Made by a program: the position numbers and the translations under genes. From an uncultured Opitutia bacterium (GTDB lineage Bacteria; Verrucomicrobiota; Verrucomicrobiia; Opitutales; Opitutaceae): a stretch of DNA of 38,731 bases. Positions within the stretch are counted from its first letter, which is position 1. The number at the start of each line of letters is the position of its first letter. Positions 5,757-38,176 of the stretch are shown here, piece by piece. The DNA lies in contig CAIONS010000003.1 in assembly GCA_903859715.1 (NCBI GenBank), positions 1 through 38,731 of the forward strand, read 5' to 3'. The notes under the pieces were generated by a model. It made no database searches, was not told where the DNA came from, and saw nothing but the letters and a program-made list of their open reading frames with translations.

Positions 5757-5839
5757 AAGCTCTGCGCCGTCGCGCCGCTTTCACGATGCTTGCCTCATGT
5801 GCAGGGCCGGGCATGCTGGCAGAATTACCGTTCCCCCCC

Positions 5840-7201
5840 ATGCGTCGTCCCGGTGATTTCCTGCGGATTTTGAGCGCAGGCGCGTTTTTTGCGCAGGGCT
5901 TTCTTTGGGCGCAGACGCCCGCCGCGACGGATGCGACCTTGCAGGCGATCATCGAGCAGAACCAGCAGTTGCAGGCGGAGGTGAAGGCGCAGCAAAAGAC
6001 AATCGAGGCGCTGAATGCCCAGATGGAGGAAATTCGAAAAGCGAGCGAGCGGCAGGATCGCGCCTTGCAGAGCCTGCAGGCGCGGTCGGATGCGGCGGCG
6101 CCCGACCGTCCGGTTCCCGTCGAGCAGGATCATGACCATGAGGTAAGGGTGGGTGGCGAGATGGCCCTGGGATTTTTCAGCACGGGCAGCGCGGGGCAGT
6201 TCCCGAAGTCAGAGTTCCGGGTCGACGACTCGAAGGTCACGCTCGAGGCGGCGGTCTGGAAGAATGTCTATTTCTACACGGACCTCAACCTGCTCACGCG
6301 CGAGACCGGCACGGACAATTTCCAGTTCGGCGAACTCTACGTGGAGTTAGAGGGCCTGGCGGATCGCTGGGGCCACCCGGATCTGCTCAGTCTGCGGTTC
6401 GGCAGCATCAACATTCCCTTCGGCGAGGAATATCTCCTGCGCGGGCCGATGGAGGATCCGCTGATTTCCCATTCGCTCAGCGACATCTGGGGTCCGGACG
6501 AGGGCGTGGAGCTTTATGGCAAGGCCGGCGCATTTCAATACGTGCTCGCCGTGCAGAACGGCGGCCTCAGCCAGCTGCACGATTACAACGCCGACAAATC
6601 CCTCACGCTGAAATTGGGCTGGGATCCGCTGGCGTGGGTGCATCTGAGCGCGAGCGCGATGCGGACGGGGGAACTCAACACGGTCTCACCGGTGACCTCG
6701 GTGGGGGACAACCTGTCTGCGCTCTGGTTTGCCAACGCATTTTTCCGGGCGCTGGGTCCCGCCATCAACACCACGCATTTCTCGGTGAATCTTTATGAAG
6801 CCGACGCCGTGGCCCACTGGAGCAGCGGTCACGTCAGCGCGGCGCTGGGCCAGGCGCGGTTCGACGACAACGATCCCTTGGTGAATGACTCCCGGCGGCT
6901 GACCTACGGCTATCTGGAGACGGTGCAGTCCCTCACGGACCAGCTGTTTGGGGCGGTGCGCTATTCCGAGATTCAGGCGCCGGGCGGTTATCCGCTCGCG
7001 GGCTGGGGCAGCCCGGGGACGTATTTTTACCGGCCGTCTTTGACCGAGGAACTGAAGCGGATGAGCCTGGGGTTTGGCTACCGCTTCGGGCCTCCGCTGG
7101 TGCTGAAACTCGAGTACAGCTGGGAGAGCGGCCACATGATCAATGGCACGCCCCGCAATCATGAGGATTTCTTCGGCGGCCAAATCGGCCTGAAATTCTG
7201 A
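5840..7201 (+). CDS. Porin-like outer-membrane beta-barrel protein with N-terminal coiled coil
   Basis: The ATG at 5840 (MRRPGDFLRIL) gives a 453-residue precursor with a signal peptide ending near 'LWAQ'; frames open further upstream would bury the signal. The mature N-terminus (about residues 35-85) is Gln/Glu-rich coiled coil ('IIEQNQQLQAEVKAQQKTIEALN' pattern), followed by a His/Asp linker and a long stretch of alternating hydrophobic/polar beta strands ending in 'GQIGLKF', a typical barrel-terminating aromatic. This is the layout of coiled-coil-plus-barrel porins such as OprP/O-like proteins; I cannot assign a substrate. It starts 84 bp after ligA and is followed after 14 bp by the cupredoxin gene and then the sensor kinase, all on the same strand, so the three are probably co-transcribed. 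Confidence 0.75.
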   Translation: MRRPGDFLRILSAGAFFAQGFLWAQTPAATDATLQAIIEQNQQLQAEVKAQQKTIEALNAQMEEIRKASERQDRALQSLQARSDAAAPDRPVPVEQDHDHEVRVGGEMALGFFSTGSAGQFPKSEFRVDDSKVTLEAAVWKNVYFYTDLNLLTRETGTDNFQFGELYVELEGLADRWGHPDLLSLRFGSINIPFGEEYLLRGPMEDPLISHSLSDIWGPDEGVELYGKAGAFQYVLAVQNGGLSQLHDYNADKSLTLKLGWDPLAWVHLSASAMRTGELNTVSPVTSVGDNLSALWFANAFFRALGPAINTTHFSVNLYEADAVAHWSSGHVSAALGQARFDDNDPLVNDSRRLTYGYLETVQSLTDQLFGAVRYSEIQAPGGYPLAGWGSPGTYFYRPSLTEELKRMSLGFGYRFGPPLVLKLEYSWESGHMINGTPRNHEDFFGGQIGLKF

Positions 7202-7215
7202 TCTTCTCCCATCTC

Positions 7216-7896
7216 ATGACCATGAAACGATTGCTCCTTGTCCTGTGGCTCGCGGGCGCGATGGCGGTCCGGGCAGGGACGATCATCGGGACGGTGCGTG
7301 GCCTCCCGCCGAAGGGCGGAGCGGAGGCGGCCGGTGGCGGCGCCTATGAAAGCCGGCGCTACAAGTTTGCCGAGAAGGTCGACTATGAGCACTTGCAGGA
7401 CTTCGTCGTCTATATCGACCAACCGGTGTCTGAGGTGACTCCGGGCGCCCCGCGGCTGGCAGCGGTCACGACCCAGAAGAACGCGAGCTTCGACCCGCAT
7501 GTGCTGCCGATCGCGGTCGGCACGACGGTGCGCTGGCCGAATGACGATGACATTTATCACAACGTCTTCTCGATGTCGGACCCAAAGGAATTCGACCTGG
7601 GGTATTACAAAAAGGAGCTGACGCCCGAGGTGGTTTTCGACAAGGTCGGCCGGGTGGATGTGTTCTGCGCCATCCACACCAAGATGCACTGCATCATCCT
7701 GGTGCTGCCGAATTCATTCTTTGCGACGGCCGATGCGAAGGGCCGGTTTGTGATCAAGAATGTGCCGCCCGGCACCTACAAGCTGCGGGCCTGGCATGAG
7801 CGGCTGCCGAGCCAGATCAAGGAAGTCGTGGTGCCGGCGGAGGGCGAGGTGACGGTGGATTTTGCGCTCGGGCTGTCCGGATTGCCGAAGTACTAG
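7216..7896 (+). CDS. Exported cupredoxin-domain protein (methylamine-utilisation-like)
   Basis: Product of 226 residues with a signal peptide (MTMKRLLLVLWLAGAMAVRA, cleavage near residue 20; a second ATG at 7222 would also work). Residues about 60-165 form a plastocyanin/azurin-type fold with a full type-1 copper set: H115 in IYHNVF, then C151, H154 and M157 in VFCAIHTKM. Residues about 170-215 ('GRFVIKNVPPGTYKLRAW') resemble a carboxypeptidase-regulatory or transthyretin-like beta domain. Proteins of this build are often annotated as 'methylamine utilization protein', although no mau genes are nearby. It should act in the periplasm in copper binding or electron transfer. The kinase gene starts 3 bp after its stop, which argues strongly for co-transcription. 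A role in delivering a redox or metal signal to the kinase is inference. Confidence 0.85.
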   Translation: MTMKRLLLVLWLAGAMAVRAGTIIGTVRGLPPKGGAEAAGGGAYESRRYKFAEKVDYEHLQDFVVYIDQPVSEVTPGAPRLAAVTTQKNASFDPHVLPIAVGTTVRWPNDDDIYHNVFSMSDPKEFDLGYYKKELTPEVVFDKVGRVDVFCAIHTKMHCIILVLPNSFFATADAKGRFVIKNVPPGTYKLRAWHERLPSQIKEVVVPAEGEVTVDFALGLSGLPKY

Positions 7897-7899
7897 GCC

Positions 7900-10185
7900 A
7901 TGGCGAATTCCCGACGAAGGTTCCGTTTCAGCCTGCAGACCAAGGTTCTGATCGTGGTGCTGGGCTTTCTCGTGCTTCTGCCCGCCGTGACGCTGTGGAT
8001 CGTCAACGACCACATCCAGCAGCAGATGGAGGATGAGGCGCTGCGGACGCTCACGACTGCCGAGGCCGTTTTTCTCAAGTCCCTCGACAACCGCGGGCGC
8101 AATTTCCTGACCCACTATGGCAGCGTGGTGGAAGAGAAGCGGTTCAAGATCACGGCGGACCTCGCGGTGACCGGTGAGCGGGCCGAACCCAAGACCATGA
8201 ACGGCCTGCTCAGCAACGTGCTGGAGGATTCCCCGGAAGACCATGCCGCGATCCTGTTCTTCGATGCCAGGAATGAATTGATTGCCGGCCGCCGCCGGGC
8301 GTCGTCCATCGATATCGAGCGGTTCGCCCAAGCGGCCGCGGCCGTCACGCGCAAGGCGCTCGCCGGGGATCCGGCCACGGGGGTGGTGGGTCTGGATGGC
8401 AACGCCTATCATGTGATTTCCGTGCCCGTGGCGGCGCCGACCTCGGGGCCGCTGACCGGGGCGCTGACCGTGGCCATCCATCTCAACGAGGCGACACTCA
8501 AGGAACTCAAGCTGCCGCGGACTGAGATCCTGCTGGTCATCGACAACCGGGTGGCGGTTTCCACCGTTCCGGGCATCGAGCTGCCGGATTCGCTGTTGCG
8601 GCAGGCCGCGCCTCCGTCCGATCCCACGGAAGCCGCCCCGGTGCAAAGTGTCCGGCGGGTCATCATGGCCGGAGAGCATTTCATGGCGCGGGCCGGGGAT
8701 ATCGATGCGGCCGGACCCGGCCGGCAGGGCATTCACTACGTCATGTTTTCGTCCTACGAGCAGCGGCTGCAGGCCTTGGCGCAGACGCGGCGCGAACTCG
8801 TGGGCTTGAGTGTCGCCGCCATTCTGGTCAGCGCGCTGGTCGTTTCCTGGTTTGTCCGGCGCGCCACGCGTCCCTTGCGCGCCCTGCGCGACAGCGCCGA
8901 GGCGGTCGGCCGGGGCGATTTTTCCCGGCGGATCGAGCGGTTCTCCAATGACGAGTACGGGGATCTCGCGGTGGCGTTCAACCAGATGACCACGAACCTG
9001 CAGACGTCGCGCACGGAGCTGGAGCGGGCGATGCAGACGGTGAAGGCGACCCAGGAGCAGCTCATCCAGAGCGAAAAACTTTCCGCGGTCGGCCAGTTCG
9101 TGGCCGGCGTGGCGCACGAGCTGAACAATCCGCTGACGGCGGTCATCGGGTTTTCCGAGCTGCTGCAAAGCATGGAGTCGAACGAGAAGATCCGCGGCCA
9201 TCTCGACCGCATCGCGAAGAGCGCGCACCGGTGCCACAAGATTGTCCACAGCCTGCTGAGTTTTGCCCGGCAGGAGGCGCCGGAGCGCAAGCTGGTCGCG
9301 TTGCATACGGTCATCGAGGAGGTCCTGGAAATCATGGCCTACGACCTGCGCACGAGCAATGTGACGGTGGTGAAGGAGTTTGCCCCGACCGTGCCGCCGA
9401 TCATGGCCGATCCGCATCATCTGCAGCAGGTTTTTGTGAACATCCTCGGCAACGCGCGACAGGCGATCGAGCCGTTTCAGCGCGAAGGCCGCATCGTCGT
9501 GCGCACCTCGACCGAGAACGGCTGGGTGAAAATCGAGTTCCAGGACAACGGCCCCGGCATCCGGCCGGAACATCTGGCGCGCATCTTCGATCCGTTCTTC
9601 ACGACCAAGCCGGCAGGCAAGGGGACGGGACTTGGGCTGAGCCTTTCCTACGGCCTCATCCAGGAACACGGCGGCCGGATCAGCGCGCGCAGCGAGCTGG
9701 GCCAGGGTGCCGCATTTACCATCGAGCTGCCCGTGGCCTCCGCCTCTGCCGCGACGCAGACCATCCGCCGCAGCGGCACGCCGTGGCCGTTTGCGCCCTC
9801 AGGCGGGCCGACGGGCAAGTCGATCCTGGTGATCGATGATGAGGAATGGATCCTGGATCTTGCGCGCGAGCTGCTGCAGGGCGACGGGCACGCCGTGGAA
9901 ACCGCATCGAGCGGACAGCGGGCGCTCGAGTTGCTGAGCCGGCAGAAATTCGACGTCCTGGTCTCTGACTGGAAAATGCCCGGGTTGAATGGCATCCGGC
10001 TCTACGAGCACTTGGTGGCGACCCATCCCGAATCAGCCAAGCGGATGTTCTTCATGACCGGCGACGTGGTCAGCGACACGTTCCAGGCATTTCTCCAGCA
10101 GCACAACCTGACCTGCCTGTCGAAGCCGTTTGCGATCAGCGAATTTCGCTCGGCGGTGAACCGGATGTTCAAGGCCGGGAAGTAG
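7900..10185 (+). CDS. Hybrid sensor histidine kinase (HAMP-HisKA-HATPase-REC)
   Basis: Product of 761 residues. TM1 is at about 16-34 and TM2 at about 300-320, enclosing a periplasmic sensor region of some 265 residues that looks like a CACHE-type fold, not confidently classifiable by eye. Then HAMP (about 320-372), a coiled-coil linker, and HisKA with the phosphorylatable H406 in [12 protein letters not shown]. The HATPase domain has an N box around N514/N518, DNGPGI at 549-554 and GTGLGL. A receiver domain at 641-757 has D646, D647, phosphoacceptor D690, T720 and K742, all conserved. No DNA-binding domain is attached and no separate response regulator gene lies nearby, so the output partner is elsewhere or phosphate is passed to a distant phosphotransfer protein. 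The gene abuts the cupredoxin and porin genes, suggesting it senses a periplasmic redox, metal or solute signal connected with them (inference). Confidence 0.93.
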
Positions 10186-12861: not shown

Positions 12862-14880
12862 TCACGCGTGAGCCGGGGCGGGATCGAACCATTTCCCGTG
12901 TTCCTTGATGAGCGCGACGAGCTTCGCGTCGGCCTCGGCCTGCGGGATGTTGTACTGCACGCAGTTTTTCCCGACGTAGAGGTTGATTTTGCCGGGCGCG
13001 CCGCCGACGTAGCCGAAATCGGCGTCGGCCATTTCACCCGGGCCGTTCACGATGCAGCCCATGATGGCGATCTTCACGCCCTTGAGATGGCCGGTCTGGG
13101 CGCGGATGCGCTGGGTGGTCGTCTGGAGGTCGAAGAGCGTCCGGCCGCAGCTCGGGCAGGCCACGAATTCGGTCTTGGAAATACGCGCGCCGGCACCTTG
13201 AAGAACGTTGTAGGCGAGCCGGGTGGCCCGGACGGGGTCTGCCTCGGTCTCAATGCTGACGAAGTCGCCGAGTCCGTCGCACAGCAGGCCGCCGGTGAGA
13301 AACGAGGCCTCCAGCAGTTTGGAGAGGAAGGTATTGTCGCCGCTCACGGCGGTCGCCGGGGTGTTGCGAATCCAGAGCGGGGCGCGGGAGCCGAGCGCAC
13401 TCAAGGCCTTCGCGAGGCGCCGGTAGGCGCCCAGGGCGTGTCCGATACCGGATACCGGATGGCGGATACCGGATAGGGTGAAGAGCAGGCGGTCGTCGCC
13501 GAGTTGCTGGAGCGTCGGGGCGAGGGGTATGAGATCAACGGGAGCGACGGCGACGGCCAGGGCGAATTGGTGTTCGCGGGCGAATTGAGTGAACGCGGTG
13601 AGGGTCGTGGCCTCGCTGACGGAGAATTCCCGGACGAGGATTGTGCCGGGCGGGAGATGGGCGGCGACGGGCTTGAGCTCGCTGACGGTGACCGTGGGAG
13701 CGAGTTCCAAGGCATAGGAGGACGCGCCGGGATTGGGCAGGCTCGTGATTCGGGAAACCGAATCCACCTGCACGAGGATGATCTCGGCGGGCGTATCCTT
13801 GAGCTTGCCGGCGGCGAGCTGGGCCAGTGTCGCGGCGACATCCTCACCCGCCCGCACGATCACCCGTGGCGGCTGCTCCGGCCCGACTGTGATGCCCGGC
13901 CCCACATGCAGCGTCGTCGTTTCACGCTTGGTAAAATGGTACGGATCGATCCCGTCTGCTTCCTTCTCCTTGCTCTCTTCTCCCTTCTCCTGGCGCCACA
14001 ACGCCATCGCCTTGTCCGCGATGGCCCGCGCGACTGGCACTTCATAAACGCTGTCCTCGGTCAGCGACACGCGGATGGTGTCGCCGAGGCCGTCGAGCAG
14101 CAGCGAGCCGATGCCAATCGCGCTCTTGATCCGGCCGTCCTCGCCGTCACCCGCCTCGGTCACGCCGAGATGCAGCGGGTAGTGCATGTCCTCCTGGTCC
14201 ATGCGCTGCACGAGGAGCCGGTAGGCCTGGATCATGACCTTCGGGTTCGACGCCTTCATCGACAGCATGAGCTGCCGGTAGCCGTGCGACTCGGCGATGC
14301 GGAGAAACTCGAGCGCGCTCTCGACCATGCCGAGGGGCGTGTCGCCATAGCGGTTCATGATGCGGTCGCTGAGCGAGCCGTGATTGGTGCCGATGCGCAT
14401 GGCGCGGCCGAGTTCCTTGCTGCGCTTGACGAGCGGTGAAAACGAATCGTGCAGGCGCTGCAGCTCCGTTTCATAGTCGGCGTCGGAGTACTCGCGGACG
14501 GCGAATTTCTTCTTGTCCGCATAATTGCCCGGATTCACGCGGACCTTCTCGACGTGCTCGACCGCTTCCATCGCGGCGCTGGGCAGGAAATGGATGTCGG
14601 CGACGAGCGGCACATGGCCGAAGCCAGCGGCGGTGAACTGCGCGCGGATGTCCTTCAGGCATTTCGCGGCGGCGACATTGGGCGCGGTGATGCGGACGAT
14701 CTCGCAGCCGACCTCAGCGAGAGCGATGGACTGCTTCACAGTCGCGGCGACATCCTGAGTGTCGCTGGTTGTCATCGATTGCAGACGGATGGGGTTCGTG
14801 CCGCCGACGCCGACGCCGCCGACCATGACCTCGAGGGTGGGCCGGCGGACGGTATGGAAACGTGACGCGCAATAGGACAT
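12862..14880 (-). CDS. ispG: 4-hydroxy-3-methylbut-2-enyl diphosphate synthase IspG, large insertion type
   Basis: Product of 672 residues from the ATG at 14880 (MSYCASRFHT); a TTG 15 bases upstream is less likely. GAGG precedes the ATG by about 10 bases. It converts MEcPP to HMBPP in the MEP isoprenoid pathway using a 4Fe-4S cluster. The N-terminal TIM barrel begins 'GGTNPIRLQSMTTSDTQDV'. The C-terminal cluster domain has C575, C578, C609 and E616 in 'CPSCGRT' and 'GCIVNGPGE'. Between them is the extra domain (roughly residues 290-540) typical of plant, chlamydial and PVC IspG, which explains the length compared with about 370 residues in E. coli. Within that domain, residues about 467-479 (SGIRHPVSGIGHA) are encoded by an intergenic-type repeat. 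It follows the rseP stop by 15 bp and is the last gene of the operon. Confidence 0.96.
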   Translation of the reverse strand: MSYCASRFHTVRRPTLEVMVGGVGVGGTNPIRLQSMTTSDTQDVAATVKQSIALAEVGCEIVRITAPNVAAAKCLKDIRAQFTAAGFGHVPLVADIHFLPSAAMEAVEHVEKVRVNPGNYADKKKFAVREYSDADYETELQRLHDSFSPLVKRSKELGRAMRIGTNHGSLSDRIMNRYGDTPLGMVESALEFLRIAESHGYRQLMLSMKASNPKVMIQAYRLLVQRMDQEDMHYPLHLGVTEAGDGEDGRIKSAIGIGSLLLDGLGDTIRVSLTEDSVYEVPVARAIADKAMALWRQEKGEESKEKEADGIDPYHFTKRETTTLHVGPGITVGPEQPPRVIVRAGEDVAATLAQLAAGKLKDTPAEIILVQVDSVSRITSLPNPGASSYALELAPTVTVSELKPVAAHLPPGTILVREFSVSEATTLTAFTQFAREHQFALAVAVAPVDLIPLAPTLQQLGDDRLLFTLSGIRHPVSGIGHALGAYRRLAKALSALGSRAPLWIRNTPATAVSGDNTFLSKLLEASFLTGGLLCDGLGDFVSIETEADPVRATRLAYNVLQGAGARISKTEFVACPSCGRTLFDLQTTTQRIRAQTGHLKGVKIAIMGCIVNGPGEMADADFGYVGGAPGKINLYVGKNCVQYNIPQAEADAKLVALIKEHGKWFDPAPAHA
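13441..13476. repeat. In-frame GATACCGGAT repeat inside ispG
   Basis: Three near-identical units of the GGATACCG type follow each other here and are translated as SGIRHPVSGIGHA on the minus strand. The motif resembles the 'ACCGGATA' arms of the intergenic inverted repeat at 17568-17749. Confidence 0.6.
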
Positions 14881-14895
14881 GCGGGCCGCCCTCAA

Positions 14896-16329
14896 TCAGG
14901 GTTTGGCAGGAGCCGCAGCGTGGGCGGCGGCCTCGGCCCGGTCGGCCTGGACATCGCGCACCCAGCGGCGGACGTCGAAAAAGCCGACATACAGGATGAA
15001 CGAAATCAGGAGGACAAAGCAGACGCTCTGGGCCATGATGATGAAGTTCACGGGCAGCGAGCGGCCGCGCAGCCGGCCCACGGTGGCGAACAGCATCTGG
15101 CCGCCGTCGAGCACGGGGATGGGCAGCAGATTGCAGATCGCGAGGTTCACGTTCACGAGGATCGTGATGAAGAGGGCGGCGCGGATCCCGGCCTCGGCGG
15201 CGCTTTGGAAGACGCGGAGAATGCCGACAACGCCGGAGGCTTTCGACAGCCCGATGTCAGAATGCGGGCTGAGAAAACTCCAGAGTGAGCGGAAGGTCAG
15301 TTTCACCTGGTCGGCGAGCAGGGTGAAGGGCGACGGGTGCGTGAGCCGGAGACCGGTCGCGAAGCCGAAACCGAAATTATCGGTGGGTTTGGCGGCGGGC
15401 CGGGCGGGAATGGTCAGCGAGCGTTCCACTCCGGCGCGGAGCACATGCGCGATGACCGGCCGAGCCCGAGCGGTATCGAGGTGTTCCTGCACGACCTCGG
15501 GGAGCAACGTCAGGGTCTCATCGAGGCGGAGAAGTTCATCGCCTTTTTGAAAGCCGGCTTGCTCGGCGGGTGAGCCCGGATCGATCTGGAGGACGAACAA
15601 TTCGCAGCCAGGGGCGATGCCGATCTTGCGTTCCTTCTCCTCGCCCACGAGCTGGGGCTGCAAGGAAAAATCGATGAGCCGGCCATCGCGTTCCGCCGTG
15701 ATGAGCACGCGGCGCTCGCCGGTGTCGGTGTGTCCGTCGCCCAGCTTGAGGGAGAACTGCACTTCGTTCCAGTCCTTGACCCCGTGGCCGTCGATGGTCC
15801 GCACGGTGTCGCCGATGCGCAGTCCGGCCTGAAGCGCAGGACTCGGCGCCTTGGTGCCGTCGGCCAGCTCGATCGTCGGCGCGACATAACCGATGCGGGT
15901 CGTGGCCGTGAGGCCGTTTTCCGGTACGCCGATTCCCGTGAGCACACAGGCGAGGACAAAAGCGAAGAGCGTGTTGAACGCCGCCCCGGCGACGAAGACG
16001 ATCATCTTCGTCGCGTAGCTGACAGGGGGAAGCTTGGAGATGTCCACCTCGCTCTGGCCCTCGACGGCGCCGAGGTCGGCGAGTTGCGGCAGCAGCACAT
16101 AGCCGCCAAGGGGAATCCACGAGATCCGGTACTCCACGCCGTCCCGGCCGCGCCGCGACCAGATTGCCGGGCCGAAACCGATGGAGAAGCGTTCCACCTT
16201 TACGCCACGCCGGCGGGCCGCGAGGAAGTGTCCCAGTTCATGGACGAAGATCGAGAGTCCCAGCAGCAGCAGGGCGAGGGCAAAGGTCCAGGCGTTGGAA
16301 AAAACCGAGGAGAGCAGGTTGGGAAACAC
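14896..16329 (-). CDS. rseP: RIP site-2 zinc metalloprotease RseP
   Basis: Product of 477 residues. An intramembrane protease of the inner membrane; in relatives it cleaves anti-sigma factors and leftover signal peptides. The first helix carries the zinc motif HELGH (H30, E31, H34). Two PDZ domains follow in the periplasmic part (about 150-220 and 235-320; 'LQAGLRIGDTVRTIDG' and 'AEQAGFQKGDELLRLD'), and the third metal ligand lies in 'PIPVLDGGQMLF' near residue 400. It is somewhat longer than E. coli RseP (450). The ATG is 8 bp after the dxr stop, and ispG follows 15 bp later, so it lies inside the operon. No anti-sigma factor gene is visible nearby. Confidence 0.96.
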   Translation of the reverse strand: MFPNLLSSVFSNAWTFALALLLLGLSIFVHELGHFLAARRRGVKVERFSIGFGPAIWSRRGRDGVEYRISWIPLGGYVLLPQLADLGAVEGQSEVDISKLPPVSYATKMIVFVAGAAFNTLFAFVLACVLTGIGVPENGLTATTRIGYVAPTIELADGTKAPSPALQAGLRIGDTVRTIDGHGVKDWNEVQFSLKLGDGHTDTGERRVLITAERDGRLIDFSLQPQLVGEEKERKIGIAPGCELFVLQIDPGSPAEQAGFQKGDELLRLDETLTLLPEVVQEHLDTARARPVIAHVLRAGVERSLTIPARPAAKPTDNFGFGFATGLRLTHPSPFTLLADQVKLTFRSLWSFLSPHSDIGLSKASGVVGILRVFQSAAEAGIRAALFITILVNVNLAICNLLPIPVLDGGQMLFATVGRLRGRSLPVNFIIMAQSVCFVLLISFILYVGFFDVRRWVRDVQADRAEAAAHAAAPAKP

Positions 16330-16337
16330 GGTGAGGA

Positions 16338-17525
16338 TCAGGCCGTGAAGGCTTTGAGTTGGAGGGTGGCGATGCGCCGGGCGGAGGCGTCGGCCTGCAA
16401 GACCGCGCTGAGGGTGTCCGGTTCGAAGTTATCCACGTGTTGCAGAGTTTGATCGATGACCCGTGGAATCGCAAGAAAGGGGATTTGCCCGCCGAGGAAA
16501 GCGGCGACGGCGACCTCGTTGGCGGCGTTGAAGATGGCCGGGGCGATGCCGCCGGCGGTCATGGTCTGGCGGGCGAGGCGGAAGCAGGGGAAGCGGTCCT
16601 CGTCGACCGGCCGGAATTCGAGGCCCAGCAGCCGGGTGAAATCGAGCGAGGCCTCAACCCCCGGTGCGCGGGCCGGGTGCAACAGGGCGTGCTGGATCGG
16701 AAAGGTCATCGACGGCGGCGAAAGTTGGGCGAGCATCGCGCCGTCGGTGAACTCCACGAGGCAGTGCACGATGCTCTGCGGATGGATGACCGCGGTGCAT
16801 TGTGCGGCGCGGAGGCCGAAGAGCCACTGGGCCTCGATCAGCTCGAGGCCCTTGTTCGCGAGCGTGGCGGAATCGACGGTGACCTTGGGGCCCATGGACC
16901 AGTTCGGGTGCTTGAGGGCGTCAGCGGGCGTGACATGCGCGAGCCGTTCGGCGGGCCAGTCGCGGAACGCGCCGCCGCTGGCGGTGAGGACGATGCGGCG
17001 GACGCCGGCCGACGGATGGCCCTCGAGGCATTGGAAGACCGCGCTGTGCTCGCTGTCCACGGGCAGCAGTTTCGCGTCGTGCTGCCGCGCCGCGGCCATG
17101 ATGAATTTGCCGGCGAGCACGAGGATCTCCTTCGACGCAAGGGCGAGGTCCTTGCCGGCGGCGAGCGCGGCGAGCGCGGGCTCGAGCCCGGTGGTGCCGA
17201 CGACGGCGACGAGCACGAGATCGGCCTCGGGCAACTGGGCGAGCGCGACGAGCCCGCCGAGTCCACCATAAAGCTGGGTGCCGGCCGGAAAGGAACCGGG
17301 AGTTTTCGCCGCGGCGTAGGCGGCGTCATCAAACACGGCGACGTGGAGCACGCCGAAGTCCCGTGCGATCTGGGCCAGCCGGGCGTGGTTCGTGCGGGCG
17401 GCGATGCCGACGAGTTCCAGCTTGTCGCGGTGCGCGGCGATGACGCGCAGGGTGCTTTCGCCGACGGAGCCGGTCGCGCCAAGGAGGACGATGCGCTTGC
17501 GGGGAGTTGAAGAGGAAACGGCCAC
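16338..17525 (-). CDS. dxr: 1-deoxy-D-xylulose 5-phosphate reductoisomerase
   Basis: Product of 395 residues, normal length. It rearranges and reduces DXP to MEP with NADPH, the first committed step of the MEP pathway; ispG, two genes downstream, catalyses a late step. The NADPH-binding loop is GATGSVGEST at 16-25. The metal-binding acids lie in 'PVDSEHSAVFQ', and the catalytic loop and third acid in 'NWSMGPKVTVDSATLANKG' and 'LELIEAQWLFG'. The start MAVSSSTPRKRIVLLG places the nucleotide-binding strand immediately after, as in the family. A 231-bp gap filled with nested inverted repeats separates it from cdsA, the only sizeable gap in this operon. Confidence 0.97.
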   Translation of the reverse strand: MAVSSSTPRKRIVLLGATGSVGESTLRVIAAHRDKLELVGIAARTNHARLAQIARDFGVLHVAVFDDAAYAAAKTPGSFPAGTQLYGGLGGLVALAQLPEADLVLVAVVGTTGLEPALAALAAGKDLALASKEILVLAGKFIMAAARQHDAKLLPVDSEHSAVFQCLEGHPSAGVRRIVLTASGGAFRDWPAERLAHVTPADALKHPNWSMGPKVTVDSATLANKGLELIEAQWLFGLRAAQCTAVIHPQSIVHCLVEFTDGAMLAQLSPPSMTFPIQHALLHPARAPGVEASLDFTRLLGLEFRPVDEDRFPCFRLARQTMTAGGIAPAIFNAANEVAVAAFLGGQIPFLAIPRVIDQTLQHVDNFEPDTLSAVLQADASARRIATLQLKAFTA

Positions 17526-38092: not shown

Positions 38093-38176
38093 GCCCGGGT
38101 GGCGGAATTGGCAGACGCTGCAGACTCAAAATCTGCCGACAGCAATGTCATGTGGGTTCGACCCCCACCCCGGGCA
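38093..38176 (+). tRNA. tRNA-Leu (anticodon CAA)
   Basis: An 84-nt class II tRNA. Acceptor GCCCGGG pairs with CCCGGGC, discriminator A. Anticodon stem GCAGA/TCTGC with loop CTCAAAA gives CAA at 34-36. The long variable arm (GACA/TGTC) is typical of leucine. The T arm GTGGG-TTCGACC-CCCAC is intact. CCA is not encoded (CTA follows), unlike the tRNA-Pro at the left end. The 3' half overlaps the end of an integrase reading frame on the other strand. Confidence 0.95.

Follow-up and report, generated by a model that had tools for sequence, protein, structure and literature searches.

A porin, a type-1 copper protein and a hybrid histidine kinase as a candidate trans-envelope signalling module in Opitutaceae

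We analysed a stretch of 38,731 nucleotides (hereafter the window, meaning the whole of this stretch; contig CAIONS010000003.1, C3 in our numbering) from the 3.18-Mb genome of an uncultured bacterium, whose closest named relatives come from Opitutaceae and other Verrucomicrobia. Three open reading frames (ORFs) follow one another on its + strand, encoding a porin-like outer-membrane barrel (5840–7201), an exported cupredoxin (7216–7896) and a hybrid histidine kinase (7900–10185), and their coordinates bear out the adjacency, with gaps of 14 bp and 3 bp, claimed in an earlier note on this DNA (the original prediction). This gene order is conserved far beyond chance, and the trio may be one copy of a widespread signalling module reaching across the envelope.

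Features of the porin, cupredoxin and kinase

The porin frame is open from position 5786, and a stretch resembling a signal peptide, read by eye, begins at the ATG at 5840, in agreement with the start that had been predicted. Besides this signal peptide, the product has a predicted coiled coil at its N-terminus (5909–6097), where only coiled-coil Pfam models match, and a C-terminal Phe. Pfam BBP2 left the window porin unmatched and gave weak matches in 3 of 15 relatives (best E 0.001), and a PDB profile search with the barrel returned no useful match. The relative L005, whose porin frame is interrupted by in-frame stops, was left out of the porin alignment.

In the 226-residue reading of the cupredoxin, the type-1 copper domain (7474–7686) holds the complete site that had been proposed, namely H115 (7558), C151 (7666), H154 (7675) and M157 (7684). 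Among solved cupredoxins, its profile matches nitrite reductase (1.8e-10) and amicyanin (3e-6) chains; Pfam Copper-bind scores 17.1, under its cut-off of 21.2, and the NCBIfam amicyanin model reaches 21.7 bits, so far under its cut-off of 110.2 bits that a role in a methylamine pathway was rejected. A further, C-terminal domain of the carboxypeptidase-regulatory-like kind (PF13620, residues 170–218, positions 7723–7869; 35.4 bits, cut-off 32.3) was absent from the original prediction. The source genome encodes a single cupredoxin of this family, with two other Copper-bind proteins elsewhere. Across the cupredoxins that we compared, the HCHM ligand set is retained in 172 of 173 (all 126 linked to a receptor and 46 of the 47 others), and the window protein is presumably loaded with copper.

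The kinase (761 residues) has the domains of a hybrid enzyme with a large periplasmic sensor, as had been claimed. Two transmembrane (TM) segments, at about residues 16–34 and 301–319, enclose a CHASE4/double-Cache-like domain (residues 35–300, positions 8002–8799); Pfam places behind them a HAMP domain (8848–9003), a HisKA and HATPase_c core (9088–9738), in which the alignment locates H406 and the N, G1 and G2 boxes, and a Response_reg receiver domain with D690 (9823–10158). CHASE4 scores 24.7 bits on the whole kinase and 26.7 bits on residues 1–320, against a cut-off of 26.2; among 16 relatives of the sensor, dCache_3 matches seven and CHASE4 four, and a PDB profile search with the sensor gave no useful match. 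In the alignment of window-type sensors, H, M or C does not exceed 70% in any column, and Cys is absent from 18 of 33 sequences. A metal site in this domain was rejected for want of conserved metal ligands, and since these are missing, the cupredoxin would be a likelier reader of metal or redox state than the receptor.

Conservation of the gene order

In a first neighbourhood check, the order porin, cupredoxin, kinase was kept by 15 of 17 relatives (L003–L017). In L018, the gene after the cupredoxin encodes a class III cyclase with a periplasmic part that matches that of the kinase, and the context in L019 differs from the trio. A count over 200 genomes of the family (cupredoxin profile, E ≤ 1e-40), in which both neighbours of every place were read, gave 63 cupredoxin places spread over 52 genomes. 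Scattering of the three genes had been set beforehand as the outcome that would speak against the original prediction; instead, the cupredoxin is followed by a gene for a two-TM receptor in all 63 places, a conservation by which chance adjacency is rejected. A partner gene thus lies beside the receptor across genomes, as is expected of a co-sensor.

The 63 receptors comprise 35 of the window type, 23 of a second kinase type and five of a cyclase type. Every window-type locus has the receptor gene and, in profile comparison, 34 of 35 have the barrel upstream, L180 starting inside the cupredoxin; in L085 and L092 the contig ends within the receptor, in L180 the receptor frame is broken, and in L202 the porin frame is. 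Loci of the second type have an OmpR-type regulator: in 21 of 23 it lies directly upstream of the cupredoxin, in L122 it lies upstream at a distance of about 0.7 kb, and in L115 it is encoded on the opposite strand; the absence of a DNA-binding regulator is therefore particular to the window type. In the five cyclase-type loci (L124, L125, L171, L172 and L177), a small barrel-like ORF and the receptor flank the cupredoxin. In L177 (2979–5522), the adjoining receptor ends in DUF6580 in place of the cyclase.

In the reverse direction, the profile of the window-type sensor matched at 39 places, in 38 of the 200 family genomes. Of these, 35 are beside a cupredoxin and two at contig ends (G541, G487); one is the lone kinase of L160, described below, and one, L161 (G515:C158), is a decayed locus in which pieces of porin, cupredoxin, sensor and kinase are left. 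When Pfam dCache_3 served as an independent starting point, 27 of its 36 places adjoined a cupredoxin; the other nine are L218 and eight receptors unmatched by the sensor model described below.

The barrel is retained when its position changes. It lies downstream in 29 of 30 second-type loci, the exception (L111) being on a short contig, and the barrel families of the two types are related (hhalign 98.7, E 2.5e-16). The same profiles matched a barrel in 35 of 50 cyclase loci. Eight of these were placed downstream, five of which (L125, L213, L216, L217 and L223) probably lie upstream instead, an overlong call of the cupredoxin frame being the cause. No kinship with the window porin was detectable for DUF3034, for the alginate-export-like barrel of L146 or for the small barrels; DUF3034 and the small ORFs are putative barrels, judged by their exported look and C-terminal Phe.

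Exchanged outputs and related sensors

Beyond the family, a phylum sample (E ≤ 1e-10) gave 55 cupredoxin places in 41 of 387 genomes. Among the 44 loci that the family count had not covered, a receptor was recognised in 26 (17 cyclases, seven histidine kinases and two Ser/Thr kinases), three adjoin COX1, and 15, mostly the weakest matches, have an unrecognised context; one short stretch (G160:C202) reads regulator, cupredoxin, kinase. All three genomes of the small phylum of L018 have a cupredoxin match, and L153 again pairs the cupredoxin with a cyclase. The phylum of the Kofleriaceae record yielded 44 places in 34 of 188 genomes; 13 of the 36 loci fetched have a recognised receptor (nine cyclases, one EAL protein, one kinase and two Ser/Thr kinases), the kinase locus, L233, having a window-like porin upstream. 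The link between cupredoxin and receptor is looser outside the family.

Matching plasmid records numbered 14. Five of the six loci opened are cupredoxin–GGDEF-EAL pairs, and a Phyllobacterium plasmid locus has a different context. Four of the five pairs (L050–L053) adjoin DUF3034 and a truncated haemoglobin, which in L050 (5450–5890) has a start resembling a signal peptide; its presence in these Proteobacterial units may point to a signal that is a gas or a redox state. Receptors beside cupredoxins thus end in a hybrid kinase, a PAS–histidine kinase–receiver protein, a histidine kinase, a class III cyclase, a Ser/Thr kinase or a GGDEF-EAL enzyme. That the inner end of the receptor is exchanged and the pair is kept suggests a contribution of the copper protein to the receptor's sensing of the cell exterior. 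A separate arrangement was seen in L130 (5351–10584), where two successive cupredoxins are followed by a porin-like fragment and a HAMP-HisKA-REC kinase.

Sensors of these different receptors resemble one another in profile comparison, as found for cyclase with EAL (E 8e-30), cyclase with second kinase (2e-23), EAL with window kinase (4e-18), cyclase with window kinase (5e-17), window with Ser/Thr kinase (2e-11) and window with second kinase (7e-11). A hidden Markov model (HMM) built from cyclase and EAL sensors (match threshold E < 1e-4) matched 32 of 32 window-type, 28 of 30 second-type and two of three Ser/Thr kinase receptors, as well as all 23 cyclase receptors, eight of which are in the model; it left all eight dCache_3 receptors that lack a cupredoxin unmatched. 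Single-sequence hhalign had too little power for a decision, giving 29–33% for the window sensor against the cyclase and EAL profiles and 93.6% for one of the eight controls (L209).

In a tree of the 173 cupredoxins, the window type forms one clade (support 99); sequences of the second type also group together (90). The cyclase rows need 13 changes, and all labels together need 19; shuffling gave a mean of 100, and none of 200 shuffles came down to 19, with near-copies favouring such clustering. A few rows labelled 'other', such as L154 and L177, do have a receptor. The comparison indicates that cupredoxin and receptor type are inherited jointly. Distances were compared for 29 of the 31 fetched window-type loci with all parts, after exclusion of L099 and L101, in which the H-box pattern could not be located. 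Cupredoxin and sensor distances correlate (r 0.655; the partial value is 0.55 when the kinase core is controlled for and 0.40 when the porin is), but the comparison does not single out the sensor, as the correlation of the cupredoxin with porin and with kinase core is higher (0.82 each).

Around the window trio, ligA (Pfam) precedes the porin, and on the opposite strand, 3′ of the kinase, lie a 172-residue ORF that Pfam leaves unmatched and an ORF judged by eye to be dnaA-like. As had been claimed, the flanking ORFs and ten further window ORFs given to Pfam include no DNA-binding response regulator and no methylamine gene. Between 5400 and 10400, a promoter scan found no promoter-like site, and a terminator scan found four sites against 4.1 expected, so the one after the kinase does not stand out from chance. 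Elsewhere in the window, genes for GcpE, an M50 peptidase and DXP reductoisomerase stand in series on the − strand (12862–17525), and two tRNA genes lie close to its ends (115–188 and 38093–38176).

Interpretation and comparison with known systems

On balance, we favour the reading that the trio exemplifies a widespread module for signalling across the envelope, which combines a barrel in the outer membrane, a type-1 copper protein in the periplasm and a double-Cache-like receptor in the inner membrane, with the cupredoxin probably acting as periplasmic co-sensor of the receptor. A stimulus would enter via the barrel or act at it, and the cupredoxin would switch state through copper loading, a Cu(I)/Cu(II) change or a bound ligand; the altered cupredoxin would act on the periplasmic domain of the receptor, which would relay the change via HAMP to its output domains, in this case HisKA/HATPase and the receiver. 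That cupredoxin and receptor touch, which signal is read (redox, metal, gas or a solute), which way information flows and what the receiver acts on are parts of this scheme that we infer. Genome comparison at the sequence level shows what the scheme builds on: conserved gene order, kinship of the sensors, exchange of outputs, retained copper ligands and a barrel kept despite a changed order. We regard the three genes as one unit because the trio is conserved, its outputs are exchanged and the barrel is retained in altered gene order; the envelope-spanning unit of the original prediction is well supported on this ground, and its copper protein reporting to the kinase is best taken as the preferred reading.

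Several observations weigh against this proposal. No recognised receptor adjoins 47 of the 173 compared cupredoxins, three of which lie beside COX1. Conversely, the cyclase receptor L218 has no cupredoxin that could be found, and in L160 (G403) neither porin nor cupredoxin accompanies the kinase in the 12 kb that were read. The genus of L160, g208, also holds the decayed L161 and intact copies in L106 and L108, the lone kinase being on G403:C7. The barrel profiles found no match in 15 of the 50 cyclase loci. Cache domains are kin in general, the pairs second kinase–EAL (1e-5) and second kinase–Ser/Thr kinase (0.003) are weak, and the L131 sensor is weakly matched or unmatched by the EAL and Ser/Thr kinase profiles. 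No fusion of a cupredoxin with a receptor or barrel was found in the fetched loci; apparent fusions were rejected, as their long frames look like read-through of GC-rich DNA. One Kofleriaceae cupredoxin of this family (L019, 7647–9254) continues in frame into a part with two CxxCH motifs like those of c-type haem proteins, read by eye.

A wider form of the proposal, which we advance more tentatively, would make a blue copper protein an interchangeable reader of signals in at least three phyla. Paired, mostly along with a barrel, with Cache receptors ending in kinases, cyclases, cyclic di-GMP (c-di-GMP) enzymes or Ser/Thr kinases, the cupredoxin might pass the redox, copper or NO/O2 state of the surroundings inwards by copper chemistry.

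The main rival holds that barrel and cupredoxin are working machinery, for regulated copper uptake or electron transfer across the envelope, which the receptor only controls or monitors, by way of a small ligand bound to its own Cache domain. Cupredoxins are known mainly as electron carriers, and the haem-like motifs of L019, with the COX1 neighbours of L142, L148 and L149, suggest that relatives may be such carriers; a MauG-like peroxidase (L194) and SCO and cbb3 oxidase genes on a plasmid (L055) point the same way, and all these relatives retain the copper site. Yet outputs range from second-messenger enzymes to kinases and the cupredoxin stays directly beside the receptor, and no gene for copper export, an oxidase or another copper or electron-transfer partner was recognised adjoining the window trio, so that we consider this explanation unlikely. 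More doubtful still is a copper-stress system that senses periplasmic copper as CusRS and CopRS do, with the cupredoxin as copper binder: the complete copper site, the periplasmic sensor and the barrel would suit it, but copper export and oxidase genes were not recognised in the same neighbourhood, the sensor lacks conserved metal ligands, and type-1 sites mainly serve electron transfer. Mere common descent of the region as a whole, suggested by ligA upstream in many close relatives, is very improbable and was rejected, as the trio occurs in all 31 fetched window-type loci (L079–L109) and ligA in 14 (some contigs being short), identities there fall to 36% (porin) and 48% (cupredoxin), and the porin lies upstream in one type and downstream in the other.

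If the co-sensor reading is true, the cupredoxin, a classic protein, would have a new task, information would have a new route across two membranes, tied to a barrel and to many receptor outputs, and many genes now named 'methylamine utilization protein', the annotation carried by relatives of this cupredoxin, would gain a function. Among the matches listed by searches of the open-access literature, we found no account of the module.

For the relatives so annotated, we take MauL-type cupredoxins to be the fitting comparison. The window protein shares with amicyanin and the MauL type a type-1 copper domain and an amicyanin-like match, but it has an extra C-terminal domain, and no methylamine gene was recognised nearby. 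The receptor resembles CHASE4 and dCache_3 receptors in its two TM segments, its periplasmic domain of about 255 residues and its HAMP domain, and differs in being encoded directly after a cupredoxin. CusS and CopS are copper-responsive kinases, which are alike in sensing in the periplasm with a possible copper link; here, however, the sensor has no conserved metal ligands, and in place of the regulator and copper genes typical of CusRS and CopRS loci, the neighbours are ligA, the 172-residue ORF and the dnaA-like ORF. LuxP–LuxQ, TorT–TorS and ChvE–VirA are periplasmic co-sensor systems, in each of which, as here, an exported protein is encoded beside a receptor that senses in the periplasm, a likeness in the way of working only. 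In the module, by contrast, the partner is a type-1 copper protein, a barrel is part of the unit, and the pair serves kinases, cyclases and c-di-GMP enzymes alike.

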